A program made the translations under genes and the position numbers. This document shows positions 120-18,769 of a DNA stretch of 21,974 nt, one piece after another. This DNA is from JBFMHD01 sp040752395 [NCBI: Candidatus Hydrogenedentota bacterium] (GTDB taxonomy: Bacteria; JBFMHD01), in assembly GCA_040752395.1 (NCBI GenBank), contig JBFMHD010000013.1:1-21974 (forward strand), read 5' to 3'. Numbering within the stretch: position 1 is the first letter of the stretch; each line of letters opens with the position of its first letter. The notes beneath the pieces were generated by a model, which was not told the origin of the DNA, ran no database searches, and saw only the letters and a program-made list of their open reading frames with translations.

Positions 120-186
120 AAGCAAGAGGCACAAAGGCACAAAGGATGAAAAACCAGTTGTTTGTTTATCTTGCTTCTTGCTTCTA
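117..186. repeat. Inverted repeat between acpS and nnr, arms of 11 bp
   Basis: TAGAAGCAAGA at 117-127 is the exact reverse complement of TCTTGCTTCTA at 176-186. The arms are opposite-strand pieces of the same TTGCYTC repeat family found elsewhere in the window. The left arm contains the stop codon of the upstream gene. The 48-base spacer contains CACAAAGGATGAAAAAC, which recurs on the minus strand just upstream of repeat copy B (about 10417-10433). A hairpin is possible but the loop is long and no T-run follows, so it is not called a terminator. Confidence 0.7.
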
Positions 187-223
187 CTTGATATCATTAG
201 AGTTACAATGTTTTTCAGAGGAG
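166..223 (+). repeat. Dispersed repeat cassette, copy A (leader of nnr)
   Basis: This stretch holds two TTGCTTC heptamers and then a block running from TACTTGATAT to the Shine-Dalgarno sequence. From 176 to 216 it differs from copies B (10201-10343, minus) and C (15577-15718) at a single base (C at 195, T in the others). With copy C the match extends through AGAGGAG to 223. Copies B and C carry four heptamers where this one has two, so the array varies by whole 7-bp units. The cassette ends 5 bases before the nnr ATG. Confidence 0.85.
217..223 (+). promoter_or_regulatory. Ribosome binding site of nnr, supplied by repeat copy A
   Basis: AGAGGAG lies 5 bases before ATG 229. It decides the start of nnr, because the longer open frame from 106 would translate the repeat into a low-complexity Cys/Leu-rich leader with no counterpart in the family. 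TACAAT at 204-209 could be a -10 box, but no convincing -35 hexamer stands at the right distance. Confidence 0.8.
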
Positions 224-228
224 TGAAT

Positions 229-1758
229 ATGAAAATAGTAAATCAAGAACAGATGAAAGAGATTGATAGAAAAACCATAGAAGAGATTAAGATACCCTCT
301 CTTATCTTAATGGAGAATGCTGCAAATAATACTGTTCTTGCTGCTGAAGAAATGCTTGGAAATCTTAATAGAAAAAAAATAGGTATTTTTTGCGGCACTG
401 GGAATAACGGCGGAGATGGTATGGCTGTTAGTAGAATCCTTTTAACAAGAAAAGCTGAGCCCTATATCTATATAATTGGTGATATTGATAAAATAACAGA
501 TGATGCTAAAATCCAGTTTGAAATAATTAAAAATTTAGAAATCCCTTTTGTAAATATCAAAGACAAAGCAGATCTAATAAAATCAAAAAATAACTGGGAT
601 TTGGTTATTGACGCGATACTCGGCACAGGAAGTAAAGGCGAGTTGAGGGGGATATACAGGGATACAGTAATATGGCTAAATTCTTTAAATAAACCGATAC
701 TTTCCATTGATATCCCGACAGGTGTTGAACCTGATACTGGTAAAGTTTATACTGATGCTATTCGTGCTACACGAACAATAACTTTTGGGCTGCCAAAAAT
801 AGGCAATGTATTTTATCCAGGAACAGTCTTTACAGGTGCGCTTAATGTTGTTGATATTGGTTTTCCTTCCAAGTTTTTACAGGATGAAAATATTAAACTT
901 AATCTTTTATTATTAGAGGAGGTAAGAAATCTATTACCATCATATCCTGAAAATATTTCAAAAGATAATCGAGGTCGCACCTTGATTATTGGTGGTGGCC
1001 AAGGTATGGCAGGCGCTGTGGTTCTTGCAGCACAAGCAGCTTTAAAAATAGGTGCAGGTGTTGTATATACCTATACCGGAAAAGGATCGCATAAAATAGT
1101 TGCTAATAATTCTATCGAGAGTGTTAATTTTGAATGTGAAGAAGATTATTTAACAAATAAGGATGTGGAAAAGATTAAGGGAATAGCTGTACGATGTAAA
1201 TCAGTTGCCATAGGACCCGGGCTCTCGCTTGAACCACAGACAAAGAATGCTTTTTTTAGAATACTTAAAGAGGTTAAAACAAAATTTGTTATAGATGCTG
1301 ATGGGATTAATATTTTGAAAGATAATATTGAGATTTTAAATGAGATACCCTATTCTATTTTAACGCCACATTTAAAAGAATTTGCGCGATTGACTGATAT
1401 AAACGAAAAAGAGATATTAACCAATGCTCTTTCTATCGGTGAAGAGTTTGCTAAAAAGTGGAATATTATACTTCTTTTAAAAGGATTCAGGTCTATTATA
1501 TTTTTACCTGATACTCAGAAGTTTATTTTACCTGTGGGAAACATCTCTCTTGCAACAGCAGGCAGTGGGGATGTATTGACTGGTATTATCTGCGGGTTAC
1601 TTGCTATGACAGAAAACCCGATGAAATCAGCTCTTGCAGGTTCTTTTATTCATGGTTTTATCGGTGATATGTTAAAAGCAGAGATCGGAGATACAGGTGC
1701 AACAAGTATTGACATTTTAAAGAACATCCCGCTTGCCATAAAGAAGATAAAAGTATGA
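229..1758 (+). CDS. nnr: Bifunctional NAD(P)H-hydrate repair enzyme (epimerase plus ADP-dependent dehydratase)
   Basis: This 509-residue protein has the two-domain Nnr/YjeF architecture. The N-terminal domain (about 1-215) is the NAD(P)HX epimerase, with the GNNGGDG signature near residue 60 and the VIDAILGTG and SIDIPTGVEPDTG segments. The C-terminal domain (about 230-509) is the ADP-dependent (S)-NAD(P)HX dehydratase, a ribokinase-like fold. It shows TLIIGGGQGMAGA, AIGPGLSL, VIDADGINIL, LTPHLKEFARL and the late ATAGSGDVLTG catalytic loop. Together they restore hydrated NADH and NADPH damaged by heat or GAPDH side reactions, in the cytosol. The length is normal. Its stop overlaps the nadA start by 4 bases (ATGA), so repair and synthesis of NAD are probably translated together. 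Its leader is a dispersed repeat. The family call is firm; linkage to NAD synthesis is inferred from context. Confidence 0.95.
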   Translation: MKIVNQEQMKEIDRKTIEEIKIPSLILMENAANNTVLAAEEMLGNLNRKKIGIFCGTGNNGGDGMAVSRILLTRKAEPYIYIIGDIDKITDDAKIQFEIIKNLEIPFVNIKDKADLIKSKNNWDLVIDAILGTGSKGELRGIYRDTVIWLNSLNKPILSIDIPTGVEPDTGKVYTDAIRATRTITFGLPKIGNVFYPGTVFTGALNVVDIGFPSKFLQDENIKLNLLLLEEVRNLLPSYPENISKDNRGRTLIIGGGQGMAGAVVLAAQAALKIGAGVVYTYTGKGSHKIVANNSIESVNFECEEDYLTNKDVEKIKGIAVRCKSVAIGPGLSLEPQTKNAFFRILKEVKTKFVIDADGINILKDNIEILNEIPYSILTPHLKEFARLTDINEKEILTNALSIGEEFAKKWNIILLLKGFRSIIFLPDTQKFILPVGNISLATAGSGDVLTGIICGLLAMTENPMKSALAGSFIHGFIGDMLKAEIGDTGATSIDILKNIPLAIKKIKV

Positions 1759-2696
1759 AGAATATAACAACCGAGCTTATTAAAGAGATTAAATACTGGA
1801 AAGATAAGAGGAATGCGGTTATTCTCGCACACAATTATCAGCGACAGGAGGTTCAGGAGATATCTGATTTCTGTGGTGATTCCTTGGCGCTCGCATTTAA
1901 AGCAAGAGAAGCAGATAAAGGTGTAATTGTTTTATGCGGCGTACATTTTATGGCTGAAGCCGCAGCTATATTAAATCCTGACAAAACCGTACTATTACCT
2001 GAACTTGAAGCAGGCTGCCCGCTTGCTAATATGGCTCCTGTTGAGAAAGTAAAAGAATGGAAAAAAAGATATCCTGATGCAAAAATGATCGCGTACATAA
2101 ATACGCTGGCAGATGTTAAAGCGTTATCTGATATTGTATGCACATCATCTAATGCGTGTAAAATAGTTAATTCTTTAGGAAGAGATGAGCAGATATTATT
2201 TGTTCCTGATAAAAATCTCGGCCATTGGGTCTCAAAACAGACCGGTAGAGATTTGATTTTATATAATGGTTATTGCATAACACATTATTTTTTAACCCGT
2301 GAGGAAGTATCTATCACAAAAAATAGATACAAAAAGGCAAAATTTGTAGCACATCCAGAATGCAGACCCGAAGTTCTTGAACTTGCAGATTATGTCGGAA
2401 GTACAAGCCAGATTATTGAATATTGTACAAAAACAGATTTTAAAGAATATATAATAGGTACTGAGGAAGGGGTAGTAAACACTTTAATAAAGTGGAATCC
2501 AGAAAAGCGGTTTTATTTAGGTTCAAAATTTTTAGTCTGTCTTAATATGAAAATAATAACGTTAAAGAGTATCCTTGATAGTTTAATAGAGATGAGATAC
2601 AGGATTACAGTTGAAAAAAATATAGAAGAAAAGTCAAAGCGTGCTTTAGATAAAATGTTAGAGATAAGCAAAGCCGTTCCTCAACCTCAACCTTAA
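1755..2696 (+). CDS. nadA: Quinolinate synthase A
   Basis: This 313-residue protein condenses iminoaspartate (from NadB) with dihydroxyacetone phosphate to give quinolinate, using a [4Fe-4S] cluster. Three cysteines with family-like spacing are the expected cluster ligands: C88 (EAGCPLAN), C174 (NGYCITH) and C262 (FLVCLNMK). Other conserved active-site positions are H26 and Y28 (AHNYQ), Y114 and N116 (YINT), SSNA near 131-134, and H200 and E202 (AHPEC). Start ATG 1755 overlaps the nnr stop. The length is close to other short-form NadA proteins. The tail AVPQPQP is odd: its codons form a CCTCAA-type short repeat continuing into the repeat-rich intergenic region, so the last residues are probably not conserved. 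nadC, the next pathway step, is not in the window. Confidence 0.97.
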   Translation: MKNITTELIKEIKYWKDKRNAVILAHNYQRQEVQEISDFCGDSLALAFKAREADKGVIVLCGVHFMAEAAAILNPDKTVLLPELEAGCPLANMAPVEKVKEWKKRYPDAKMIAYINTLADVKALSDIVCTSSNACKIVNSLGRDEQILFVPDKNLGHWVSKQTGRDLILYNGYCITHYFLTREEVSITKNRYKKAKFVAHPECRPEVLELADYVGSTSQIIEYCTKTDFKEYIIGTEEGVVNTLIKWNPEKRFYLGSKFLVCLNMKIITLKSILDSLIEMRYRITVEKNIEEKSKRALDKMLEISKAVPQPQP

Positions 2697-2709
2697 CCTT
2701 TACCTTTTC

Positions 2710-2803
2710 TTTCTTTTCCGTTATCTTGCTTCTTGCTTCTTGCTTCTTTCGTTATCTTTCTTTTCCGTTATCTTGCTTCTTGCTTCTTGCTTCTTTCGTT
2801 ATC
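2710..2803 (+). repeat. Perfect 47-bp tandem duplication with TTGCTTC heptamers, upstream of nadB
   Basis: Two identical 47-bp units lie at 2710-2756 and 2757-2803. Each begins TTTCTTTTCCGTTATC, contains three consecutive TTGCTTC heptamers, and ends TTTCGTTATC. The internal part CCGTTATCTTGCTTCTTG is also present in dispersed copies B and C, so this is a locally amplified fragment of the same family. It occupies most of the nadA-nadB gap, with its T-rich strand in the coding direction of nadB. Confidence 0.9.
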
Positions 2804-2820
2804 TTATATAGGATGTGGAC

Positions 2821-2825
2821 AGGAA
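2821..2825 (+). promoter_or_regulatory. Ribosome binding site that decides the nadB start
   Basis: AGGAA sits 7 bases before ATG 2833. An in-frame GTG at 2815 would add six residues, but it has an AGGA only one base away, too close to act as a Shine-Dalgarno sequence. ATG 2833 is therefore preferred. Confidence 0.65.
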
Positions 2826-2832
2826 TACTATT

Positions 2833-4449
2833 ATGAGGATAGAAGAGTTAAGAGTAGATTATTTAGTGCTCGGGAGCGGTATAGCCGGATTAACATTCGC
2901 TTTAAAGGTTGCTTCTAAAGGGAGATGCCTTATAGTAACCAAGAAAGAGGATAAAGAAGCTAATACAAACTATGCACAGGGCGGTATAGCCTGTGTGATA
3001 GATCCTGAGGATACTTTTGCAAGTCATATAGGGGATACTATGAAAGCAGGTGGTGGTTTGTGTAAACGCGAGGCTGTTGAAATACTTGTTAAAGAGGGGC
3101 CAGAGAGAGTTAAAGAGCTGGTAGATATGGGTGCAGAATTTGAAACATATAAAGATAGAGATGGTAGAAAGTTATTACGATTAAGTCGAGAAGGTGGCCA
3201 CTCGGCACGTAGAATAGTTTTCTCTAAAGATACAACAGGCCAGGAAATAGAACGGATACTTTTGGAAGAAATTTATGATAAAAATGTCGAGATACTTGAG
3301 AATCATCCTGTAATAAAATTAATCTCTGATAGGAACCAGATTTATGGTGCCTGGCTATTTAACAAACGTCAGGGCAAACTGTTAAAAGTCATATCAGGGT
3401 GTATAATGCTTGCAACTGGTGGTGCAGGCAGATTGTTTCTATATACTACAAACCCTGCGGTTGCAACAGGTGAGGGTTTGATTTTAGCATATAAAGCAGG
3501 TGCTATACTTAAAAATCTTGAGTTCATACAGTTTCATCCCACAGCATTGTATCGATCCGAGTCTAAATTTACAGATGAGCGAGTTTTTCTTATTACTGAA
3601 GCTGTAAGGGGTGAGGGTGGAATATTAAAAAATTCTAAAAACCAGACATTTATGGATTTTCATCCGTTAAAAAATCTTGCACCCAGAGATATTGTCGCAA
3701 GAGAGATTGATAAACAGATTAAAGAAACAGGTCATCCCTGCGTATATCTTGATATCTCGCATCTTGATAAAAGATTTATTATAGAAAGATTCCCTAATAT
3801 TTATAAAACCTGTCTTGAAATAGGGATTGATATAACAAAAGAAGCAATCCCTGTTATACCAGCAGCTCATTATTTCTGTGGTGGTGTAGAGACAGATTTA
3901 TGGGGTCGAACCAATATAAGAGGGTTATATGCCTCAGGTGAGGTTGCTTATACGGGTGTCCATGGCGCTAACCGTCTTGCAAGCAATTCTCTCTTAGAAG
4001 CCCTGGTATTCAGTCATCGCGCAGCACTTGATGCTATTAATACCCAATTTGAAGTTAATACTAAAAGCGAAATATATAATGACATATCAGAGATACCAAA
4101 GGGTGTTCATATTTGTGGTCTGTGGTCACACTATCAAATGATCATAAAAAAAACTATGTTGGAAAACGTATCTATTGTGAGGAACGATAAAGACCTGCAG
4201 CAAGCATTAAAAAAAGTTAAAGATTTTGGCTCTTCAATAAAAGAACTATACAATAATTCATTTTTACAGGTTGATGGATTAGAGACACTTGGCATAGCTT
4301 TACTCAGTGAACTGGTCATAAAATCTGCATTATTAAGAAAAGAGAGCAGGGGTGTACATTATAATATTGATTATCCGTCTCTTTCAAAAAAACTTTATGA
4401 AACCTGTATAGATTTAAATCATCCTGATGGTTACATAAATGAGATTTAA
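2833..4449 (+). CDS. nadB: L-aspartate oxidase
   Basis: This 538-residue flavoprotein oxidises L-aspartate to iminoaspartate, the substrate of NadA, and belongs to the succinate dehydrogenase/fumarate reductase flavoprotein family. Visible motifs, numbered from ATG 2833, are the FAD Rossmann loop LGSGIAGL near 13-20, TNYAQGGIA near 45-53, REGGHSARR near 119-127, LATGGAGRL near 193-201, FHPTAL near 234-239, APRDIVAR near 283-290 and HGANRLASNSLLE near 377-389. The C-terminal helical domain ends with the SRGVHYN and DYPS segments usual for NadB. The length is normal. It lies downstream of nadA across a repeat-filled gap of about 135 bases and overlaps the next gene by 11 bases. The call is firm. 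Confidence 0.96.
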   Translation: MRIEELRVDYLVLGSGIAGLTFALKVASKGRCLIVTKKEDKEANTNYAQGGIACVIDPEDTFASHIGDTMKAGGGLCKREAVEILVKEGPERVKELVDMGAEFETYKDRDGRKLLRLSREGGHSARRIVFSKDTTGQEIERILLEEIYDKNVEILENHPVIKLISDRNQIYGAWLFNKRQGKLLKVISGCIMLATGGAGRLFLYTTNPAVATGEGLILAYKAGAILKNLEFIQFHPTALYRSESKFTDERVFLITEAVRGEGGILKNSKNQTFMDFHPLKNLAPRDIVAREIDKQIKETGHPCVYLDISHLDKRFIIERFPNIYKTCLEIGIDITKEAIPVIPAAHYFCGGVETDLWGRTNIRGLYASGEVAYTGVHGANRLASNSLLEALVFSHRAALDAINTQFEVNTKSEIYNDISEIPKGVHICGLWSHYQMIIKKTMLENVSIVRNDKDLQQALKKVKDFGSSIKELYNNSFLQVDGLETLGIALLSELVIKSALLRKESRGVHYNIDYPSLSKKLYETCIDLNHPDGYINEI

Positions 4450-5347
4450 ATTTATTTATATTTTGCTTATCTCAACATCGAGGTTTTACCATTTTGGGAA
4501 AACCGCCTGTCTTTGGCAGTGGATTCGAGCGTTGTGGCTGTTTATATTTTTTATTTGTTATGCTAATATCTCGTTTGCAGATGGTACTTATTATGATTCT
4601 ACACCTTTAACAGTTTATACAAGACTTAAAGAGAGAAAGTATCATTCTGAGCAGGACCCGCTTTATAAAACAGCTATGGTCTGGATGCCGACAGCTTTAA
4701 CCGTAGGTAGTGAGGAGAATAAACTTGGATTTGATGTAGGTGGTCAGTATTTATGGGGTAATTTAATAAAAAAGACCAGGTTCGGGAGAGATGATCTAAC
4801 ACCGCTTGATATCTGGTATATTTTTGCTGATGCTAAATACAGTTTTTTCCCTGAGGGAGAGCATAATCCTATGCTTGCTTGCGGATATACTGTAGGATAT
4901 TCTATTGGCAAGGTAAAGCCCACGCTTATTGAAGCATTACAGAAGCCTGATGTTGATGGTGAGGTTTTAACCAATACTTATATTGTATTTACAAAACGCT
5001 GGGATGAGAAACGGACTTTTGGTACACATCTTGGTTATAATCACGGCGATATGAACAGGTTAATAGCTGCTTTAAATGAAGACATTTATATTGATGAAGG
5101 TGGTGCGATATTTTTGGGGGTGACAAAGCAATTTAAAAAAGGAAGACAGCTAAAATTTGAGTGGATCATACCTGTGGGTGAGGATGAAACGCCCATAGTT
5201 ATGAACACATTTTTAAGTGGTCTCTTTGGGTTCAGGCTTTCTTTTTTGAAATATGATACAGGTTATGCGATAGCAGCAGGAGGCGGATTTCGGTTACCTT
5301 TCTGGCCAAGAATCTCAGCTGGGTGGGGAACACCAGAAACAAAATGA
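4439..5347 (+). CDS. Putative exported, beta-barrel-like protein of unknown function
   Basis: I do not recognise the family of this 302-residue protein. The N-terminus carries a hydrophobic stretch (about 33-46, LWLFIFFICYANISFA) that ends in a plausible signal peptidase site after SFA, so export is likely. The mature part is rich in aromatic and Gly residues with many short alternating strands, such as GFDVGGQYLWGN, YIFADAKYSF, GTHLGYNHG and AIAAGGGFRLPF, as in outer-membrane barrels. It ends with Trp-Gly-rich sequence. The export region is unusually long: a first hydrophobic patch (4-12) is separated from the second by a polar, aromatic segment (13-31) whose DNA contains two small inverted repeats. 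The gene overlaps nadB by 11 bases and uvrA by 4, so it is co-translated with both; neither suggests its job. Confidence 0.6.
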   Translation: MRFKFIYILLISTSRFYHFGKTACLWQWIRALWLFIFFICYANISFADGTYYDSTPLTVYTRLKERKYHSEQDPLYKTAMVWMPTALTVGSEENKLGFDVGGQYLWGNLIKKTRFGRDDLTPLDIWYIFADAKYSFFPEGEHNPMLACGYTVGYSIGKVKPTLIEALQKPDVDGEVLTNTYIVFTKRWDEKRTFGTHLGYNHGDMNRLIAALNEDIYIDEGGAIFLGVTKQFKKGRQLKFEWIIPVGEDETPIVMNTFLSGLFGFRLSFLKYDTGYAIAAGGGFRLPFWPRISAGWGTPETK

Positions 5348-8160: not shown

Positions 8161-8227
8161 CAACAGTAGACTATGGGTATCACATGTTAGACTTAAAAGA
8201 AGAAAATGGCCAGAGGCAAAATTGTAT

Positions 8228-8950
8228 ATGAATGAAAAGAAGATTAATATCAGCGTTTTTTTCCCTGCTTATAATGATGAGGGCACCATCGCAAGTCTAA
8301 TAGTTAAATCTATCTTAACTTTGAATAGTTGCGATAAAGTTGATAAATATGAGATAATTGTTGTTGATGATGCAAGCCCGGATAATTTAAACAATATTGT
8401 GGATTTCTTTTGTAAGATGTATCCTGATACCGTTCGTCTTGTAAGACACTCTGAAAACAGAGGCTATGGCGGAGCTTTGATATCAGGTTTTAAACAGGCT
8501 CGATATGACCATGTATTTTATACAGATGGCGACGGACAATATGATGTCTGCGAAATGAAACTGCTCATTGATAAAGCTTTTGAATATGATTTAGTTAATG
8601 GTTATAAAATAAAAAGACACGACCCGATTCATAGAATTATCATTGGCTATCTTTATAACTTATTTGTGAAAATAGTTTTTAACATAAAATTAAGAGATGT
8701 GGATTGCGATTTCAGATTACTTAAGAAAAGTATCTTTGATAAGATAGAGTTACATTACACAAGTGGTGTTATCTGTGTTGAACTGATAAAAAAGATAGAG
8801 ATGAGTGGTTTTAAGATTGCAGAAGTCCCGGTTCATCATTATTTTCGTGCACTCGGACATTCACAATTCTTTAATTTTACGAGATTATTTAAAGTATTTA
8901 TAACCTTAATTAAATTATGGTTCGAAATTTTTATAGATAAAACGAGATGA
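8228..8950 (+). CDS. GT2 family glycosyltransferase (polyprenyl-phosphate sugar synthase type)
   Basis: This 240-residue GT-A fold enzyme resembles DPM1-like synthases that load a sugar from a nucleotide donor onto polyprenyl phosphate. Motifs are the opening strand SVFFPAYNDEGTI (9-21), IIVVDDASPDN (43-53), ENRGYGGAL near 76-84, the DxD-containing TDGDGQYD (99-106), and DVDCDFRLLKK (157-167), which takes the place of the usual acceptor-site motif. There is no long C-terminal membrane pair, so it is cytosolic or peripheral. ATG 8228 is chosen because family similarity begins there, with AGAGG 11 bases upstream; the open frame runs back to 8153 without recognisable sequence. It follows uvrA by 67 bases and overlaps the convergent next gene by 36 bases at the 3' ends. 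It may feed lipid-linked sugar to the membrane glycosyltransferase encoded opposite; that is inference. Confidence 0.88.
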   Translation: MNEKKINISVFFPAYNDEGTIASLIVKSILTLNSCDKVDKYEIIVVDDASPDNLNNIVDFFCKMYPDTVRLVRHSENRGYGGALISGFKQARYDHVFYTDGDGQYDVCEMKLLIDKAFEYDLVNGYKIKRHDPIHRIIIGYLYNLFVKIVFNIKLRDVDCDFRLLKKSIFDKIELHYTSGVICVELIKKIEMSGFKIAEVPVHHYFRALGHSQFFNFTRLFKVFITLIKLWFEIFIDKTR

Positions 8951-10195
8951 TGAATGCTGGACTAATATCCCATAGAGTAAGATTATCCCGTATAATTTTG
9001 AACCATAAATTAAAGATAATGGACCATACATAATTATATCTATACCTTGACCCGTATATTCCATCCCGAGAAGCATAAGTGAAATGACATAAAATACAGC
9101 TAAATATTTTGAGCGTTTCTCTAAGATATACGGCAATAAAACAAGATAGGGGATTAATAAAAAGAGGAAGTGTAACTCAGTAACAAAATGCGAGATAAGA
9201 AGCATACCTGTTATAGTCAAACCAAATTCTAATTTTATATCCTGCTCTTTTCTTTTAATACAAATAAAAGCAATTATAAAAACAATAAAAGCAGAGAATA
9301 AGGTCTGAATTACTCCGAGCATTCTTTGTGTTGTTTGGAGAATGACATTCGGGAACGGCCTATCAGAGACGAGCCTTGCTATGAAACTACCAAACGAATG
9401 ATTCCCCCACCAGGAAGAAAACCCAAAGCTCCCAATGTGATTATATAACATTTTGAATTGATTTACGATAGTTTCAGACGGCAGATATAAAAGTGGTAAT
9501 AAAATTAATATTATAATCGTAACAAAACTTGTTATAACTATTAAAAATCGTCTTCTTAGAATAAAATATACAATGAATATTAAAGGCGTTAACAGAAATA
9601 AAAAATTTATACCCAAAAATATGCCGGCTAAAATATCCCTTTTATAATATGCAAAATACAGGATCGCTATAAAACAGAGCAGGATAATAGTATCAAAATG
9701 GCCGAGCTCGAATACCCTGAGTATGGAGTTATAATTTGTGAAAATGAGGATAGCTATTGTTAAAGCGATAGGATCTTTTAAGTTTAAAAAATTGATTAAC
9801 CATATAGCAGATACAAAAATAAGTATCAGCTGAATGCATAACCATAAAGTTGAGCCTATTTTATAAGGAAGAAAAGTCAGCGGAATCATAATACTATATA
9901 GCACAGGAAACTTATGAAGAAAGAAACCCTCGTCTTTATATGGTGGCCGGGTAATATATGAAGCATCCCCGAGAAATAACTTTTGTTTATCATTGTCAGT
10001 ATAATCAATGCCTTTACGAATAAGATAAGCAGGGAATAAAAGCTGCTGAAAATCAAAATATTCATAAGCTCGAAGCCCGGCAATCCCAATCTGTGCAGTT
10101 CTGTAAAAGAATTTAAAAAACGCAAAACATAAAAGAATAATGATTAAAAATTTTAATGCAAAATCTTTTTTATTATAAGTATCAATATTATCCAT
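8915..10195 (-). CDS. Polytopic membrane glycosyltransferase, GT87/DUF2029-like
   Basis: This 426-residue protein is almost wholly hydrophobic, with about ten predicted membrane spans. A soluble loop after the first span (FDFQQLLFPAYLIRKGIDY and PPYKDEGFFLHKFPVLYSI) is followed by FLPYKIGSTLWL. ELGHFDTIILLCF and AGIFLGINFLFLLTPLIF are arranged like the GQ-n-l and lgla-KP segments of GT87/DUF2029 mannosyltransferases, though the usual Lys-Pro is not conserved. Such enzymes use polyprenyl-phosphate sugars on the outer face of the inner membrane. The start at 10195 is supported by GGGAGGA 5 bases upstream, which is the end of dispersed repeat copy B. Its 3' end overlaps the convergent GT2 gene. 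Family assignment is moderate; a membrane glycosyltransferase is likely. Confidence 0.65.
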   Translation of the reverse strand: MDNIDTYNKKDFALKFLIIILLCFAFFKFFYRTAQIGIAGLRAYEYFDFQQLLFPAYLIRKGIDYTDNDKQKLFLGDASYITRPPYKDEGFFLHKFPVLYSIMIPLTFLPYKIGSTLWLCIQLILIFVSAIWLINFLNLKDPIALTIAILIFTNYNSILRVFELGHFDTIILLCFIAILYFAYYKRDILAGIFLGINFLFLLTPLIFIVYFILRRRFLIVITSFVTIIILILLPLLYLPSETIVNQFKMLYNHIGSFGFSSWWGNHSFGSFIARLVSDRPFPNVILQTTQRMLGVIQTLFSAFIVFIIAFICIKRKEQDIKLEFGLTITGMLLISHFVTELHFLFLLIPYLVLLPYILEKRSKYLAVFYVISLMLLGMEYTGQGIDIIMYGPLSLIYGSKLYGIILLYGILVQHSSSRFIYKNFEP

Positions 10196-10200
10196 TTGTA

Positions 10201-10343
10201 TCCTCCCTCGAAAAACATTGTAACTCTAATAATATCAAGTAGAAGCAAGAGGCAAGAGGCAAGAAGCAAGATAACGGAAGAAGTGAGAGGTGTCAGGACA
10301 GGCTACAGACTACAGCCAGCTGGAGCCAAAAGCCCAAAGCCTG
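10201..10343 (-). repeat. Dispersed repeat cassette, copy B (leader of the GT87-like gene)
   Basis: Read on the minus strand from 10343 to 10201, this element contains CCAGCTGG, GTAGCCTGTCCTGACACC, CCGTTATC, four TTGCYTC heptamers, TACTTGATATTATTAGAG, TTACAATGTTTTTC and finally GGGAGGA. The 97 bases at 10210-10306 are identical to 15614-15710 (copy C). Over the full shared length I count five substitutions, all in the distal part. It ends 5 bases before the start codon of the minus-strand gene at 10195 and supplies its Shine-Dalgarno sequence. Beyond 10343 the similarity to copy C stops and other short-word arrays begin. Confidence 0.9.
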
Positions 10344-10374
10344 CTGAAAAGTCTTGAGTCTCGAGTCCTGTTTT

Positions 10375-10402
10375 GACTCACGACTTGCGACTTGTGACTC
10401 TT
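10375..10402. repeat. Degenerate heptanucleotide array (GACTYNY)4
   Basis: Four consecutive 7-bp units read GACTCAC, GACTTGC, GACTTGT and GACTCTT. Just upstream (10355-10368) two related units in the opposite sense (TTGAGTC, TCGAGTC) make an imperfect inverted arrangement around a short T-rich spacer. The array lies between repeat copy B and the truncated membrane gene. No coding frame crosses it. Confidence 0.75.
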
Positions 10403-10449
10403 TTCATATCATCTTTAGTTTTTCATCCTTTGTGTAGAGCGCAAAAACA

Positions 10450-10489
10450 CAATAACGCAATAACGCAATAACCCAATAACCCAATAGTG
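10450..10489. repeat. Octanucleotide tandem array (CAATAACS)n between TGTAGAGC direct repeats
   Basis: Five 8-bp units run CAATAACG twice, CAATAACC twice, then a degenerate CAATAGTG. The array is bracketed by TGTAGAGC at 10433-10440 and again at 10488-10495. It lies about 45 bases past the end of the truncated membrane protein, whose downstream sequence has apparently been replaced by repeats. There are no CRISPR-like spacers. Confidence 0.8.
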
Positions 10490-10533
10490 TAGAGCACAAT
10501 CCGCGCTCATGACAACTCATTTATAAAATATAA

Positions 10534-11064
10534 TTATGTAACTATAGTTAAATAAATAATTAAGAATATAAGTAAGAAACTGAAAGGGATTCTACTCTCA
10601 CCAGTTGCAAATGAGAAAAAATAAGTACCAAACCCGGCAAACAATATGGTTTTAAGTCTCTGGCCGGAATTAATAGGATAAAAAGATAATATTCTGTTTA
10701 ATATTACAAGACAAAGAGATGAGCAGGGTATAGATATAAAAATTATCGATAAAAGATTTAAATACATTAATTTATTGAGGTAAGGCAAAAGACTGATAAA
10801 TGGTTTAGAAATAAAGTATAATGGGACAAGAAAAATAATGCTGCCATGTGAATGACCACAATAAAATCCGCCTTTATAAAAAGAGACCTCGCAATAACCA
10901 TATAAATCAGGCCGTTGTAGAACAAATGAATGATTATCAACGATAGAAATAGATAGATCAAGCAGATTAAACCAGCCACCATTTATCTGAGCAGGTCTTA
11001 TAAAAAATAAAAATATTAGATATGAAAAAAGAAAGATCGTAATATCAACTCTTAGATGTTTCAT
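10534..11064 (-). CDS. Polytopic membrane protein, probably the N-terminal fragment of a membrane glycosyltransferase
   Basis: This 176-residue protein has an N-terminal membrane span (9-25), a loop with WFNLLDLSISIVDNHSF, then KGGFYCGHSHGSIIFLVPLY, followed by further spans and FGTYFFSFATGES. This order (lumenal loop, G-x-x-S/H-x-x-G-x-x-x-x-x-x-P-x-Y, then FGT near a span) resembles the first third of large bacterial membrane glycosyltransferases of the GT39/GT83 type, which run to 400-500 residues or more. Here the frame ends soon after the FGT segment, and a repeat-rich stretch follows within about 40 bases; no continuation is visible in the other frames. I therefore suspect C-terminal truncation, although a short intact protein cannot be excluded. 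Its start overlaps the end of the aminotransferase gene by 20 bases, suggesting translational coupling. Confidence 0.5.
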   Translation of the reverse strand: MKHLRVDITIFLFSYLIFLFFIRPAQINGGWFNLLDLSISIVDNHSFVLQRPDLYGYCEVSFYKGGFYCGHSHGSIIFLVPLYFISKPFISLLPYLNKLMYLNLLSIIFISIPCSSLCLVILNRILSFYPINSGQRLKTILFAGFGTYFFSFATGESRIPFSFLLIFLIIYLTIVT

Positions 11065-12163
11065 AGAAACTCTTTATAGATTTAATAATATAATTTAATT
11101 CAAGTTCACTTAGAAATGGGCTTATTGGTAGTGATACGATATTATTTACCACAGCCTCTGTTACTTTTAAAGAAGATATAATTTTATATCTATTTTTAAA
11201 TGGGGGCTGTTTATGGAGCGGTAGAGGATAATGGATAAATACCTGTATCTTCTTACTTTTCATATATTCAATGAATTTATCACGGTCTTTTACTCTGGCT
11301 ACAAGGAGATGATACACAGGTTTACAGGAAGAGATGTAATCTAAAAAATCAATGTAATCTTTTAATGAGGTTCTATATCTATTTGCGATTTTTATCCTTA
11401 ATTTATTCAGGTAATTAAGTTTCTTTAATTTAACCCGAAGTATCGCGGCCTGCAATTCATCGAGTCTTGAGTTTTGGCCTGTAATAGTTGAATAGTATCT
11501 ATCAGGTTGACCATAATTCCGTAATAATTTTAGTCTTTCCATAAATCTTTTGTCATTGGTTAGTATCATACCGCCATCACCATAACACCCTAAATTTTTT
11601 GTGGGATAAAAACTAAAAGATGCAGCTTTTGAGATTTGACCCGGATATATACCATCTCTTTTTGAGCCATGAGCCTGGGCAGCATCTTCTATTACAGGGA
11701 TATTATAGCCATCTGCTATCTCAATTATTTTTCTCATATCAGCCATAGCACCGTATAAATGCACAGGAATAATCGCTTTTGTTTTTTTAGTAATTAATTT
11801 TTTTAATTCAATTGGATTCATTAACAGGTCATTCTCATTTACATCACAAAAAACAGGTGTTGCACCAGCATTAAGTATAGCCATACCAGTGGGTATAGCT
11901 GTATTTGCAGGTGTTATAACCTCGTCTTTTGCTTTAACCCCAAGCGCTTTTAGACATAATTCAAGGCCATCTGTACAGTTGGCTACCCCAATGCCGTATT
12001 TTACTTTATGAAACGAACTGAATTCTTCCTCAAATTTTTGCAATTCATAACCAAGTATATAGTTTCCTTTTTTAAGTACTTTTTTAATACAATTATTAAT
12101 ATCTTTTTTGAAAAAATTATATTCTCTAATAAGGTTAGTAAAAGTTATCATATAGTAATTCAT
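11045..12163 (-). CDS. DegT/DnrJ/EryC1/StrS-family sugar aminotransferase
   Basis: This 372-residue PLP enzyme should transfer an amino group from glutamate to a nucleotide-linked keto-sugar, making an amino sugar for surface glycan. Motifs are GNYILGYELQKFEEEF near 33-48, GVANCTDGLELCLKA near 59-73, EVITPANTAIPT near 81-92, VHLYGAMADM (134-143), VIEDAAQAHG (157-166, with the PLP-contacting Asp), SFYPTKNLGCYGDGG (184-198, with Lys189 as the Schiff-base lysine) and NSRLDELQAA. The length is normal. It is most like the QdtB/FdtB/ArnB branch, but the exact substrate cannot be read from sequence. A second in-frame Met lies four codons in, and no strong Shine-Dalgarno sequence supports either. The first gene of its minus-strand run, it lies downstream of a repeat-rich gap. 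Confidence 0.92.
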   Translation of the reverse strand: MNYYMITFTNLIREYNFFKKDINNCIKKVLKKGNYILGYELQKFEEEFSSFHKVKYGIGVANCTDGLELCLKALGVKAKDEVITPANTAIPTGMAILNAGATPVFCDVNENDLLMNPIELKKLITKKTKAIIPVHLYGAMADMRKIIEIADGYNIPVIEDAAQAHGSKRDGIYPGQISKAASFSFYPTKNLGCYGDGGMILTNDKRFMERLKLLRNYGQPDRYYSTITGQNSRLDELQAAILRVKLKKLNYLNKLRIKIANRYRTSLKDYIDFLDYISSCKPVYHLLVARVKDRDKFIEYMKSKKIQVFIHYPLPLHKQPPFKNRYKIISSLKVTEAVVNNIVSLPISPFLSELELNYIIKSIKSFYETSKS

Positions 12164-12200
12164 CAGTCTTCTGTTAGTTTTCGGTTATCCAAAAGATGAA

Positions 12201-12283
12201 GGATGAAGTGCTGAAGAACGTTTATCAGCGCTTCAGCCATTAGCACTTCAGCACTGGTGTCTTTCTTGCTTCTTGCCTCTTAA
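12201..12283. repeat. GCTGAAG-type inverted/tandem repeat plus TTGCYTC fragment
   Basis: AGTGCTGAAG at 12207-12216 and CTTCAGCACT at 12246-12255 are exact inverted 10-mers, and a third related unit, CGCTTCAGC, lies between them. On the minus strand the stretch reads as two degenerate 15-bp units beginning GCTGAAG. Immediately to the right, TTGCTTC and TTGCCTC (about 12263-12276) show the heptamer words of the dispersed cassette, but without its Shine-Dalgarno block. It lies upstream of both the aminotransferase (minus) and, more distantly, the epimerase gene (plus). Confidence 0.7.
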
Positions 12284-12360
12284 TTCCACCCATAACTGAT
12301 GGGATACATAATATAAGCATTAAATTTTAAATAATTGCAAGTTGAAATATTTTGCAATTC

Positions 12361-12396
12361 AGACATTAGACTTCAGACTCCTGGACATCAGACTTT
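12361..12396. repeat. Degenerate heptanucleotide array (AGACNYY)
   Basis: Units AGACATT, AGACTTC, AGACTCC and TGGACAT follow in register, then after one extra base AGACTTT. This is a third unrelated 7-bp word array in the window. Confidence 0.65.
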
Positions 12397-12670
12397 TTTG
12401 TGTAATCTCTGGCAATTCCATTAAGTCTGGTGTTTGATCTCTATGGTCTTGTGTCACACAATAACCACTTTTATTTTTTGTAATTTCAATATAATCAATA
12501 TAATGTAAAAAGGGTCACAAGAGCCATTCTTTAGACTTTAGAGATGTTAAAAAACATATCGAATTAAAAAATGGCGTTGAAACACATATAAGAAAAATGA
12601 GGAAAGGACTGACTTTGTAATGGCTTTATTTGATACGGAATATATTAATAGATCATTATAAAAGAGTTAA
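12397..12670. other. Intergenic stretch with no recognised gene
   Basis: No convincing coding sequence is present. A 38-codon open stretch ending at TAA 12618-12620 on the plus strand has a protein-like composition but no start codon and no recognisable family; it may be a remnant. No tRNA-like fold or strong terminator is apparent. Confidence 0.5.
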
Positions 12671-12723
12671 GTTGTATGTTCCCAATTATTAAATTTAATA
12701 TTATACAAATTTTCACATACAAC
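12671..12723. repeat. 9-bp inverted repeat upstream of the epimerase gene
   Basis: GTTGTATGT at 12671-12679 pairs exactly with ACATACAAC at 12715-12723. The 35-base spacer is AT-rich and contains a second near-palindrome (TTATTAAATTTAATAT). It could be an operator or a structured remnant; no T-run follows on either strand that would make a clear terminator. Confidence 0.5.
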
Positions 12724-12794
12724 AGTTACTTTTAACCTCACAAAAGTGCGGTTATAATATTTACCAGTCGTTCCATTATAATTGCAAGTTAATA

Positions 12795-12824
12795 TTGACT
12801 CTCAAATTAAAAGATGATTATATT
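12795..12824 (+). promoter_or_regulatory. Sigma-70-like promoter of the epimerase gene, apparently giving a leaderless mRNA
   Basis: TTGACT (12795-12800) and TATATT (12819-12824) are 18 bases apart, the best promoter match I see in the window. The start codon ATG 12830 lies six bases after the -10 box, where transcription would begin. There is no Shine-Dalgarno sequence before the ATG, which agrees with a leaderless transcript. A lone TATAAT at 12753-12758 is an alternative -10 without a good -35. Confidence 0.5.
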
Positions 12825-12829
12825 AAGCT

Positions 12830-13825
12830 ATGAATAAAATGAAACAATTCTGGTATAAAAAGAATGTTCTTGTAACAGGCGGAGCAGGGTTTATAGGTAG
12901 TAACCTTTGTATTGAGCTTGTTCGACTTGGAGCAAAAGTTACAGTTGTAGATTCACTTTTGCCTGATTATGGCGGGAATTTGTTTAACTTAAAGCCTGTT
13001 ATTAATAAAATTCATCTAAATATAGCTGATATTCGGGATAAATATAGTCTGATTTATCTTGTAAAAAATAAAGACTTTATTTTTAATCTCGCAGGTCAGG
13101 TAAGTCATATCGATAGTATGACCGATCCTGTAACAGACCTTGAAATAAATTGTACAAGTCAGCTTGTTTTATTAGAAACAGTAAGAAAAATAAACCAGCA
13201 AGTCAAAATAATATATGCAAGCACAAGACAATTATATGGTAAACCACTCTTTCTACCTGTTAGTGAAACACACCCCAATTATCCAGTTGATATTAACGGA
13301 ATCAATATGCTTGCCGCTGAACAGTATCATATGCTTTATAATGATATTTACGGGATAAAATGTGTTTCAATCAGGATGACAAATACGTATGGACCAAGAC
13401 AATTGATGAAACACAGTCGTCAGGGGTTTGTGCCGTCTTTTATTAGATTAGCATTAGAGTCCAAAGAGATTTGTATTTATGAACCGGGGACTCAAAAACG
13501 GGATTTTAATTATGTATCTGATGCTGTTAGTGCCTTGCTATTAGCAGGCAGTCTTGAAAAATCCTATGGCAAAATTTATAATCTCGGTCATCATAAGTAT
13601 TATTCTCTAATAGAATTTACAGAATTATTAATTAAAATACTTGGTAAAGGTAAGTATAGAATAGTTAAATGGCCCAGGGGTAGAAAGAAGATAGACATAG
13701 GTGATTATTATGGAGATTATTCACGGATAAAGAGAGAGTTGGGATGGGAGCCGAAAGTTTCGCTTGAACAAGGGTTGAGACGAACAGTTGCGTTTTACAG
13801 GAAATATAAAAAATATTACTGGTGA
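12830..13825 (+). CDS. Extended SDR NAD-dependent sugar epimerase/dehydratase with atypical active site
   Basis: This 331-residue protein has a clear Rossmann start, LVTGGAGFIGSNL (14-26), with Asp41 after the second strand, which favours NAD(H). It also has FNLAGQVSH near 85-93, a YASTRQLYGKP segment (129-139), RMTNTYGPRQ, and RDFNYVSDAVSALLLA in the C-terminal sugar-binding part. In most extended SDRs the catalytic motif is YxxxK. Here the aligned stretch is DINGINMLAAEQY (154-166), with Asn156 where Tyr should be and Met160 where Lys should be. From memory, a subfamily with STRQ-Y and VNGINK keeps the Lys but not the Tyr; loss of both would be more unusual. It may be inactive, use another mechanism, or act structurally. 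Neighbouring sugar genes point to nucleotide-sugar or glycan synthesis. The Met at 12839 is an alternative start. Confidence 0.88.
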   Translation: MNKMKQFWYKKNVLVTGGAGFIGSNLCIELVRLGAKVTVVDSLLPDYGGNLFNLKPVINKIHLNIADIRDKYSLIYLVKNKDFIFNLAGQVSHIDSMTDPVTDLEINCTSQLVLLETVRKINQQVKIIYASTRQLYGKPLFLPVSETHPNYPVDINGINMLAAEQYHMLYNDIYGIKCVSIRMTNTYGPRQLMKHSRQGFVPSFIRLALESKEICIYEPGTQKRDFNYVSDAVSALLLAGSLEKSYGKIYNLGHHKYYSLIEFTELLIKILGKGKYRIVKWPRGRKKIDIGDYYGDYSRIKRELGWEPKVSLEQGLRRTVAFYRKYKKYYW

Positions 13826-13961
13826 AGTTGATAAATGGCAAAATCAAATGATTAATTAGGAAGAGAAGAGACAGAGGGAGTACAAAACAGAAAATTATTT
13901 GACAAATATCGGGTTTTTGCATATCGTTAGAGTATTAAAAATAATACGGCGAAAAATTAAA

Positions 13962-14384
13962 ATGGGTAAAATAAATGTAAGAATAGAGTTAATTAATTAT
14001 CAGGATATGATTGCGTTTAATCTGGGAATAAAAAAAGAAAATGAAATACGTAAATTTATTGTTAACGATGCTTTAGTTGATTCTGGTGCAACAATGCTAA
14101 TGGTTCCTCAAAAAATAGTTAAACAACTTGGGCTTCAAAGAAGAGAAAGTATTCTGGTAAAAGATGCTAATGGTGGTTCTATAAATAGAGATATCTACGG
14201 TGATATATGGCTAAAAATATTGAATAATGAGGGCGTTTTTGAATGCATAGAGATACCTGATAATGTCCCTCTATTAGTGGGACAAATTCCGCTTGAAAGA
14301 TTTGATCTTGTTGTAGATTGCACAAACCAGAAATTAGTAGTAAACCCCAACCACCCCGAAGGACCAACTTTATTAGCATATTAG
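13962..14384 (+). CDS. Clan AA retropepsin-like aspartic protease
   Basis: This 140-residue single-domain protein carries the aspartic protease signature ALVDSGATMLMVP (37-49), with Asp40 as the catalytic residue. A later PLLVGQIPLERFDLVVD (103-119) matches the hydrophobic-hydrophobic-Gly element of retropepsins. The tail LVVNPNHPEGPTLLAY is typical, from memory, of a bacterial clan AA family of about 120-140 residues. One domain means it should work as a homodimer; substrates of the family are largely unknown. The open frame extends back to a TTG at 13899, but ATG 13962, two codons before family-like sequence, is preferred; neither has a good Shine-Dalgarno sequence. It follows the epimerase gene by 136 bases. 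No partner gene of obvious relevance is adjacent. Confidence 0.85.
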   Translation: MGKINVRIELINYQDMIAFNLGIKKENEIRKFIVNDALVDSGATMLMVPQKIVKQLGLQRRESILVKDANGGSINRDIYGDIWLKILNNEGVFECIEIPDNVPLLVGQIPLERFDLVVDCTNQKLVVNPNHPEGPTLLAY

Positions 14385-14446
14385 TATACTGATCTCCTGA
14401 AACGTGAGACACAGAAAAAGGCAAGGTAATTATATTCTATGAATAT

Positions 14447-14466
14447 TAGTGAGGGACTTCAGTCCC
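14447..14466 (+). repeat. REP-like palindromic element, forward member of an inverted pair
   Basis: TAGTGA is followed by GGGACT, a TC loop and AGTCCC, a perfect 6-bp stem. A second element with the same header and geometry but a different stem sequence lies on the minus strand at 14512-14531. The two face each other across 45 bases. Confidence 0.75.
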
Positions 14467-14511
14467 GTAAAATAATTCATTGATAGTTTTATAATTAAAG
14501 AACCAAAAGAC

Positions 14512-14531
14512 GCACCTAAAGGTGCTCACTA
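14512..14531 (-). repeat. REP-like palindromic element, reverse member of an inverted pair
   Basis: On the minus strand this reads TAGTGA, GCACCT, a TT loop and AGGTGC. The header is identical to the forward element and the stem and loop lengths are the same, but the stem bases differ. This is the layout of paired REP/BIME units that are mobilised by RAYT (TnpA-REP) proteins. A GTAG tetranucleotide precedes the stem here (GTAGTGA). No RAYT gene is in the window. The T-run at about 14535-14540 is too far from the stem to be a normal intrinsic terminator. Confidence 0.75.
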
Positions 14532-14690
14532 CAATTTTTTCACACCTTCTGATTGGATACAGCTGCCTTAACATTTTCTTGCTATTTTTTAATTATCATT
14601 ATATTTTCAATTTTTACATATTTTTTATGAATTTCTATCTTGTATTTTCTGCTTAACTATATAAGTTTAGGCTAAAAAGGTTATAATATA

Positions 14691-15455
14691 ATGAATAATA
14701 AAGAGAATAACTTAATGCTTAAAAATGAATATAAAATAATGTATGATGCCGAAAATACACATTGGTGGTATATTGGATTAAGGTATTGGTTAAAAAAAGT
14801 ATTATCAAAATTTATTAATAAAAACTCGATTATCCTTGATGCAGGTTGCGGAACTGGAGCCAATATGTATTTATGTAAATCATTATCTTATGATCTTTAT
14901 GGAGTTGATTTATCTGAAGAAGCACTAAAATTAACTCAGAATCGCGGGATTGAAAAAAAAAGATTATGTTGTGCCTCTGTTGATAAACTACCATTTAAAT
15001 CAGAATGTTTCGACTCTGTGATTAGCATGGATGTATTATGTATTCTTGATGAAAAACAAGAAAAGTCAACATTGTTAGAGTTTATAAGAGTATTAAAAAA
15101 AGAGGGGATTCTAATCTTAAATTTACCTGCTTTTAGTTGGTTAGAGGGCGAACATGATCAGGCGGTTTCCACTAAACATCGATATATAATTAATGATATT
15201 AAAGATAAATTAGAATCACTACAATTTAAAATAATCCGTTCAGAATATCGCTACCTCTTATTCCTTCCAGTATTATTTATAGTAAGATTAATCAGGTTTA
15301 AAAAGAAGGATAAAACAAGAGCCAGGTCTGATCTAACAGTTAATTGTAGAATAATAAATTTCTTTTTCAAAATTATTGTCTATTTAGATGAATTTATAGG
15401 CAACAATATATCTCGGCCATTTGGAACGTCGGTTAGCATTGTTGCTCAAAAATAA
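14691..15455 (+). CDS. Class I SAM-dependent methyltransferase (Methyltransf_11 type)
   Basis: This 254-residue protein has motif I ILDAGCGTGANM (48-59), the acidic end of strand 2 in YGVDLSEEAL (70-79), and the post-I segment ASVDKLPFKSECFDSVISMDVL that usually contacts the adenine. The N-terminal EYKIMYDAENTHWWYIGLR, with its paired Trp, is common in methyltransferases found beside GT2 enzymes in glycan and lipid loci. The C-terminal FLPVLFIVRLIRF could sit in the membrane surface, and the end FGTSVSIVAQK is typical. The acceptor is unknown; a sugar or polyprenyl lipid is plausible from context. The gap of 306 bases upstream holds the REP-like pair; AAAGG at about 14675-14679 is a possible Shine-Dalgarno sequence. 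It is the last plus-strand gene before the restriction module. Confidence 0.88.
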   Translation: MNNKENNLMLKNEYKIMYDAENTHWWYIGLRYWLKKVLSKFINKNSIILDAGCGTGANMYLCKSLSYDLYGVDLSEEALKLTQNRGIEKKRLCCASVDKLPFKSECFDSVISMDVLCILDEKQEKSTLLEFIRVLKKEGILILNLPAFSWLEGEHDQAVSTKHRYIINDIKDKLESLQFKIIRSEYRYLLFLPVLFIVRLIRFKKKDKTRARSDLTVNCRIINFFFKIIVYLDEFIGNNISRPFGTSVSIVAQK

Positions 15456-15576
15456 ATTTTTGTGTTGTTTTTCGCTTATTAACAATAAATTATACCAGAT
15501 CAAATTTCTTGAAAGTTTTAGGAATGGCTATTATAAGCTTATACGGATATTCTGTCATAAGATGATATGTTGGCTT

Positions 15577-15718
15577 CAGGCTCCGGGCTTTTGTCTCCAG
15601 CCGGCTGTAGTCCGTAGCCTGTCCTGACACCTCTCACTTCTTCCGTTATCTTGCTTCTTGCCTCTTGCCTCTTGCTTCTACTTGATATTATTAGAGTTAC
15701 AATGTTTTTCAGAGGAGG
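15577..15718 (+). repeat. Dispersed repeat cassette, copy C (no gene follows it)
   Basis: This copy runs from CAGGCTCCGGG through CAGCCGGCTG (a 10-bp palindrome), GTAGCCTGTCCTGACACC, CCGTTATC, four TTGCYTC heptamers and the TACTTGATATTATTAGAG block to AGAGGAGG. Bases 15614-15710 are identical to the reverse complement of 10210-10306. Unlike copies A and B, the Shine-Dalgarno end is not followed by a start codon on its own strand. It directly abuts base 15719, the last base of the stop codon of the minus-strand res gene. Confidence 0.9.
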
Positions 15719-18700: not shown

Positions 18701-18769
18701 TTTGAAATCACTCACTCCAAAGAGTGAAAGCAAATATTTATTTAAGACAAGATATTTTTCTATATTCAT
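15719..18769 (-). CDS. res: Type III-like restriction endonuclease, Res subunit (helicase-nuclease)
   Basis: This 1016-residue protein has an SF2 helicase core and a C-terminal nuclease. Motif I is AFWMATGSGKTL (145-156), motif II VDEGH (251-255, DEGH instead of DEAH), motif III YSATFGQ (281-287), motif V GSKKFIEGWDTWRVSS (526-541) and motif VI QIIQLFGRGVR (554-564), all typical of type III Res proteins. The PD-(D/E)xK nuclease is visible as PDFIMWI with P916-D917 and FIDPK with D934 and K936. With Mod it should form a complex that cuts unmethylated DNA after ATP-driven communication between sites. The start lies 3 bases after the mod stop, so the two are co-translated; GGGG just upstream is a weak Shine-Dalgarno sequence. 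The gene appears intact, and its stop codon abuts repeat copy C. Confidence 0.93.
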   Translation of the reverse strand: MNIEKYLVLNKYLLSLFGVSDFKDLQEKLKDAPITVDSDGRSYFVNILRSSFEGLRKDILSEEILLRYDENIQSYVKKINYKREPVSLKYFQYLAVLWTEIVLDNLKNRKIEFLYELNEFLETYKQEQDIDLIEKFNEDNLKKIAFWMATGSGKTLITHINYHQFFHYKLFSPDNIILITPNEGLSKQHFEELQKSGLSCKLYEGGLSSHGTFRDEKQVLVIEMTKFVEEKKGGGVTLPVGVFEGRNLVFVDEGHKGKRSEEQKWAKLRNKLAQDGFVFEYSATFGQILSERNKETLEEYAKSIVFDYSYKYFYLDGYGKDFSVLNVKQAKISERNFQETMFVANLLSFYEQLLVYEENQHLAKDHNLEKPLWIFVGTTVTGKEEGSDVIQIVEFIRSVMQDITWVHKKAEEILNGNTGLKDENNEEVFKNKFEYLKKRRVEFDDLYKKIFAGKGVFGIYELKNAEGEFGLKIGENDYFGVINIGDVSGFKKQLEKKGITVSQDAVSGSLFDTIKGEGSPVNILIGSKKFIEGWDTWRVSSMGLLNIGRGQGPQIIQLFGRGVRLKGKGMSLKRSEDKSLVQFLEMLNIYSIKADYLSKFLEAISKEEVEFEPIEIPVTPQHEKKWKSLLTLTKDEKKRFEEEEILRLELDDRIYLTIDLLPKISTYLAKERKEEGIKIEQIRTEVQEMRMTEDIIDLFDWEKMWEEICDFRIVKGYWNLVLERERLKDLLLSDRYKILALHEILEVNTQDDVLRLEDIAILVVKKYIDLFYRKYAKHFETENLRYDTVGKQLTLFAFEKPGDKYSYTLQIDKREKKLIEEIKKLAKDLNKLIKEDTKTLPRIYFDKHLYIPVLLQSKKIDKISPAGLVESEKEFVSDLRDYLKRNKDKFSGIEIYLLRNYPGSGVGFFNLSGFYPDFIMWIKDNKNQRMVFIDPKGLEHEKELDQEKIKLKDDLKQLERKLGKENVVLESFILSKTPYEKLIEGRTSPPSKDEYINQNVLFLETDWPERLFATLD

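Follow-up and report, generated by a model that had tools for sequence, protein, structure and literature searches.

The 21,974-base window analyzed here (contig JBFMHD010000013.1 of a Candidatus Hydrogenedentota bacterium) carries three copies of a non-coding repeat, in both orientations, that closes with a ribosome binding site. This dispersed repeat is real and modular; its kind is ordinary, and its end is unusual. We lean towards describing the family as modular non-coding spacer repeats of about 100 to 230 bp with a fixed 3' end, which consists of a 40-bp AT-rich block and a strong Shine-Dalgarno (SD) sequence. With a similarly modest preference, we read the element as a dispersed spacer repeat that is specific to the lineage, brings its own ribosome binding site, and was copied along with array-rich spacer DNA. 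Mobility of the repeat and common control of the downstream genes are unproven. A first-pass annotation of this DNA had placed copies at 166-223 (+), 10201-10343 (-), and 15577-15718 (+). The places and orientations were correct; the extent was too short, as the copies also have words in common farther 5'. Table 1 lists the coordinates used below.

The 40-nt 3' block of copy 3 was identical to that of copy 1 at 39 of 40 positions and to that of copy 2 at 37 of 40, and copies 1 and 2 agreed with each other at 36 of 40. The best other ungapped site in the window, on either strand, reached 24 of 40. The block is composed of CTACTTGATAT, a T or C, and ATTAGAGTTACAATGTTTTTC, followed by AGAGGAG or GAGGGAG. 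Agreement between the copies stops after the SD, and the earlier statement that similarity ends there, outside the coding region, is upheld. Copies 2 and 3 are alike over a longer core, with 136 of 145 positions identical. Copy 1 is the short version; it takes up all of the spacer between the upstream gene, which has its stop codon at 117-119, and the SD of nnr.

Each copy has a TTGCYTC heptamer array, with 2.4 units in copy 1 and 4.4 units in copies 2 and 3, and the end of the last heptamer lies 35 nt from the GGAG in all three. The middle of the repeat is variable: copy 1 has the short array only, copy 3 has the long core, and copy 2 adds to this core a 61-nt stretch of GAGTC/GACTC-type words. 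Upstream of the array, a 17-nt word is common to copies 1 and 2 (138-154, +; 10418-10434, -) and an 11-nt word is common to copies 2 and 3 (10405-10415, -; 15559-15569, +), both in the same order and orientation. In 3,000 pairs of first-order Markov sequences of 50 and 290 nt, the longest common word was only 14 nt; the 17-nt word is therefore not a product of chance. Words of at least 11 nt occurred in 28 of the 3,000 pairs, so the 11-nt word is weaker on its own. The parts originally proposed to be common to the copies (TTGCYTC array, block, and terminal SD) were all present, although the array is not specific to the family.

Table 1. Positions of the repeat copies, their parts, and associated features in the window
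Feature	Position	Strand	Details
Copy 1, short version	120-223	+	5' word 138-154; array 169-185; 3' block 184-223
Copy 2, long version	10202-10434	-	5' words 10434-10405; insert 10404-10344; core common with copy 3 10343-10199; array 10271-10241; 3' block 10242-10203
Copy 3	15559-15718	+	5' word 15559-15569; core common with copy 2 from 15577; array 15649-15679; 3' block 15678-15717; SD GAGGAGG
3' block, 40 nt	184-223; 10203-10242; 15678-15717	+; -; +	Closes with SD
SD AGGAG	219-223	+	5 nt upstream of nnr ATG at 229
nnr	229-1758	+	Bifunctional NAD(P)H-hydrate repair enzyme; downstream of copy 1
SD GGAGG	10202-10206	-	6 nt upstream of GT87 ATG (10195-10193)
GT87-family gene	8915-10195	-	Membrane glycosyltransferase; downstream of copy 2; PF09594, E 1.3e-24
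res	15719-18769	-	Type III restriction res subunit; convergent to copy 3; stop codon 15721-15719
41-codon TTG frame	15730-15855	+	11 nt past copy 3 GGAGG; antisense to res 3' end; not recognized as a gene
nadA-nadB spacer	2697-2805	+	47-bp tandem unit; contains the TTCCGTTATCTTGCTTCTTGC array module found in copies 2 and 3; lacks the 3' block

The genes downstream of copies 1 and 2 belong to different Pfam families, YjeF_N/Carb_kinase for nnr and GT87 for the glycosyltransferase, in agreement with the claim that they are unrelated. A gap of 5 bases between SD and ATG had been given for both genes; this is the distance for the AGGAG of nnr, but the GGAGG of the GT87 gene lies 6 nt away. Among the 14 starts examined, at least five consecutive letters of AGGAGGT were found at a distance of 4 to 13 nt in three cases (nnr, GT87, and mod), and at least four letters in six (additionally nadB, GT2, and mt). 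The repeat supplies two of these three strongest SDs. The proposal that the repeat delivers a ribosome binding site stands insofar as its 3' end is the SD of two unrelated genes, but it does not extend to copy 3, where a gene downstream was not recognized.

Copy 3 ends 1 nt before the stop codon of res (15719-15721), which lies on the opposite strand. No frame of at least 80 amino acids starts near this end, and no ATG or GTG occurs within 83 bases downstream. A frame of 41 codons starting with TTG is found there. As a null for this frame, a start codon 4 to 13 nt ahead was counted at 769 of the 2,348 positions antisense to res, and 85 of the 2,348 offer a start codon with at least 41 codons. 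The only Pfam match of the frame was below the cut-off (E 0.057). It is unlikely to be a small gene, and probably is not a gene. Copy 3 equals copy 1 at 24 of 24 bases of GAGTTACAATGTTTTTCAGAGGAG. Because copy 3 retains the SD letters where no gene is recognized, the SD is most likely part of the repeat itself.

We rejected truncation of res by copy 3, since the C terminus of Res is of usual length compared with three plasmid homologues. Counted from the end of the match, the ends of these homologues, taken from the 24 plasmid records covering at least 80% of Res, were 26 residues longer, 2 residues longer, and 1 residue shorter. Each of the three is encoded beside a DNA methyltransferase, as in the window. 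A scan with the Mod protein found no relative. A leftward promoter-like pair, ATGACA-17-TATAAT (11/12), borders the 5' word of copy 3 on its outer side at 15558-15530 (-), antisense to the methyltransferase gene.

Under random placement in the spacers of the window, 99 of 4,440 positions would put the SD 3 to 13 nt from a start codon (0.022, or 2.2%, per copy), which gives a P of 0.0015 for at least two of three copies at a start codon. This statistic favors a start-codon position and is only suggestive. Several points weigh against reading the repeat as a family with a built-in ribosome binding site. The gene starts were picked by the analyst and the statistics were computed after the pattern had been noticed; moreover, with one copy counted as the source, the probability of a start-codon position for one or both of the remaining copies is about 0.044. 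One copy in three, copy 3, has no recognized gene downstream, and the 41-codon TTG frame in turn weakens the claim that no gene is there. Neither inverted ends nor target duplications mark an insertion at the ends as set. No relative of the 3' block was found in the databases scanned, which leaves neither an empty site nor a copy count. Finally, the sample is three copies on one contig.

An alternative that we consider possible, on the unlikely side, is a parasitic or neutral spacer repeat that multiplies where it is harmless. Its 3' end would be G+A-rich by descent, the repeat as such would not regulate anything, and a copy immediately ahead of a start codon would persist only if an SD is retained. 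The position of copy 3 between convergent genes speaks for this reading, as does the abundance of 7- and 8-nt arrays in the spacers of the window. A precedent is offered by the BOX, RUP, and SPRITE repeats of Streptococcus pneumoniae, which, in the excerpts of the original study, are over-represented between convergent genes and regarded by the authors as probably parasitic (Croucher 2011, PMC3049150). As far as those excerpts describe them, they resemble the present family in being modular small interspersed spacer repeats, some before genes and some between convergent genes. They differ in having extensive secondary structures according to the same excerpts (PMC3049150), whereas the folds obtained here were at shuffle level. 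The neutral reading is less at ease with two of the three copies at SD distance from an ATG and with the SD block kept in copy 3, both of which would also fit a young neutral repeat. A recombining 5'-leader cassette is, in our judgment, rather doubtful. It would be a non-autonomous spacer repeat with an invariant SD end that hands unrelated genes a common, stronger translation initiation region, with the arrays acting as recombination homology; many genes here show little SD.

A putative mobile promoter is a highly similar sequence found upstream of non-homologous genes within one genome. Putative mobile promoters and promoter propagation were reportedly treated by Matus-Garcia et al. 2012 and van Passel et al. 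2014. Repeats serving as mobile promoters are presented as a described class in the available portions of one article (PMC8049555), and mobile promoters and promoter propagation are cited as known in excerpts of another (PMC9944727). The repeat studied here is likewise a short, near-identical non-coding sequence before non-homologous genes, with no transposase seen: copies 1 and 2, which agree at 36 of 40 positions of the 3' block, stand ahead of nnr and GT87, copy 3 being the exception. Unlike in mobile promoters, the common signal seen is an SD at a near-fixed distance rather than a recognizable promoter, and one of the three copies has no recognized gene downstream.

That the repeat is a mobile cassette of promoter and ribosome binding site, with a -10-like TACAAT in the 3' block, a short-leadered mRNA that begins shortly ahead of the SD, and transcriptional control in common, appears improbable to us. 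TACAAT, one base away from TATAAT, ends 10 nt upstream of the GGAG in all three copies, and the class itself has been described, as noted above. In promoter scans, no sigma-70-like pair was detected in the 3' block of any copy, a weak point against the cassette given that the promoter type of the host may differ from the sigma-70 model. The numbers of sites returned for the three regions were 0, 5, and 2, compared with shuffle means of 1.1, 1.3, and 1.0. The only own-strand promoter-like pair inside the repeat was CTGACA-17-TATCTT (9/12), which lies upstream of the 3' block in copies 2 and 3 and was not found for copy 1.

The neighborhood of copy 1 is also relevant to transcription. The gene upstream of copy 1 is probably the end of acpS, judging by the 38-residue peptide that ends at 116. 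Its four matches in NCBIfam were weak (E 0.025 to 0.099), far below the cut-offs, and fell on the C-terminal part of models for holo-ACP synthase or phosphopantetheinyl transferase; Pfam had no match for the peptide. In one of the three relatives whose flanks were inspected (L012, the best match of nnr in the plasmid collection), acpS lies upstream of nnr; it does not in L011 and L013. The L012 record (NZ_CP061968.1, 27 kb) is labelled as a Klebsiella pneumoniae plasmid, a label that may be wrong; its Nnr is 37% identical to that of the window, whereas the other Klebsiella records listed reach about 30%. The acpS-nnr pair may predate the repeat, and copy 1 may lie inside this co-directional pair. 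Because of this possible position, copy 1 need not start transcription. At least for copy 1, within the acpS-nnr-nadA run, the 3' block would not determine transcription.

Folding was compared with shuffled sequences. In six stretches, the fold energies were no better than those of shuffles (z -0.11 to 0.98), and the duplex energies between array and SD equaled those of shuffled arrays (fractions 0.48, 0.40, and 0.56). These values argue against an array-tuned translational switch, in which the CU-rich TTGCYTC array would pair with the GA-rich SD and slippage in unit number would tune translation. We regard such a switch as highly improbable, even though the minimum-energy folds of the three copies paired the array or neighboring bases with the SD region and the array length varies among the copies; the same pairing would be expected of any CU-rich tract. 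A leader that is structured or sequesters the SD is unsupported for the same reason. An Rfam-type leader was rejected, as the window had no Rfam match at the gathering threshold, and a tRNA-derived element was rejected as well. We take the 3' block and SD to be a translation initiation region with little structure, in which the pyrimidine-rich array and the AT-rich block would keep the SD free of strong structure.

Tests for the marks of transposition depend on the 5' end chosen for the copies. At the chosen ends, the longest complementary run between the 30-nt ends was 4 nt per copy, and 311 to 445 of 500 shuffles had a run at least as long. The longest common run of the 20-nt flanks was 3 to 4 nt, which 410 to 498 of 500 shuffles equaled or exceeded. 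With no terminal inverted repeat and no target-site duplication, a miniature inverted-repeat transposable element or another transposase-mobilized element is unsupported, and the mobility suggested earlier finds no support in the sense of a transposase-type element. Because these marks are missing and arrays are common to several spacers, we favor recombination or template switching over transposition. Spacer DNA would be copied between intergenic sites, and the short heptamer arrays that fill the spacers would aid the copying. A copy arriving just before a start codon would then serve the gene as its translation initiation region. Between copies 2 and 3, which are mutually inverted, lie 5,233 nt. 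As inverted arms, they bound a 5.2-kb segment (10344-15576) with aminotransferase, epimerase-like, and methyltransferase genes inside, and homologous inversion of this segment is conceivable in principle.

The heptamer arrays are not confined to the repeat. TTGCYTC arrays that lack the 3' block lie at 2724-2795 and 12263-12281; TTCCGTTATCTTGCTTCTTGC is found twice in the nadA-nadB spacer, and the divergent spacer past 12163 contains TCTTGCTTCTTGCCTCTT. Tandem Repeats Finder tracts with a score of at least 30 covered 386 of 2,220 spacer bases, compared with 222 of 19,754 other bases, with gene limits picked by the analyst. A short-unit tract at 2679-2805 spans the end of nadA, where it encodes a terminal PQPQP, and continues into the 47-bp tandem pair, so that arrays enter the coding end. 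Varied degenerate 7- and 8-nt arrays (CGACTTG, CGCAATAA, TCAGCACT, and TTCAGAC) cluster in the spacers at 10381-10486 and 12225-12395. The exact 30-nt array pattern had matches in three viral contigs, in surroundings without the 3' block. In one contig of the viral collection (L007, 909-1020), 14 perfect GAAGCAA units, on the other strand, abut the GGAGG of a TetR_N-domain gene.

Heptamer arrays in spacers have been reported in other bacteria. The TAACTGA direct repeats of marine Beggiatoaceae lie, in the excerpted text, mostly where an SD would be; about 10% of the spacers bearing them have an SD, and a translational role was proposed (MacGregor 2015, PMC4679880). Going by the same excerpts (PMC4679880), the likeness to the present arrays is that of spacer heptamers, there mostly directed towards start codons and near them, and the functions of the genes show no pattern. 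Unlike the TAACTGA type, the array here is separated from the GGAG by 35 nt, in which a unique block lies, and does not overlap the ribosome binding site. The GGGAATC-type heptameric repeats of Xanthomonas and Nostoc, insofar as the accessible part of the article describes them, also form degenerate 7-nt spacer arrays near the ends of open reading frames; they differ in being G-rich, in having another sequence, and in having no attached SD block (PMC4692102).

Searches outside the window returned no convincing relative. The core pattern matched four loci in the genome_contigs collection (84,980 species according to its description), in Euryarchaeota, Saprospiraceae, Bacillus, and Pelagibacteraceae; the 60-nt flanks were unlike the repeat by eye, and the matches look like chance. 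The pattern had no match in IMG/VR, and scans of viral contigs with pieces of the 3' block, with the array plus its 5' flank, and with the core of copies 2 and 3 gave 0 matches. Against plasmids (8 records) and phages (15 records, of which 10 were considered), the 145-bp core matched only in pieces of at most 28% of the query, mostly with E values of 0.1 to 5; the best match, in Vibrio harveyi (E 0.003), lay within the array. Matches in the 3' block, two among the plasmid rows and five among the phage rows considered (25 to 29 nt, 90 to 93% identity, E 1 to 5), were taken as chance. Because only chance or short matches were found outside the window, the repeat would come from an unsampled lineage or may be fast-diverging.

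Among the 10 to 20 best-ranked literature matches of each search, there was no description of this repeat or of a dispersed repeat with a fixed SD end. Repeats that spread promoters have already been described, and a repeat with a ribosome binding site as its fixed end would be a different route. If our reading is true, genes could gain translation signals by copied spacer DNA and not by point mutation.

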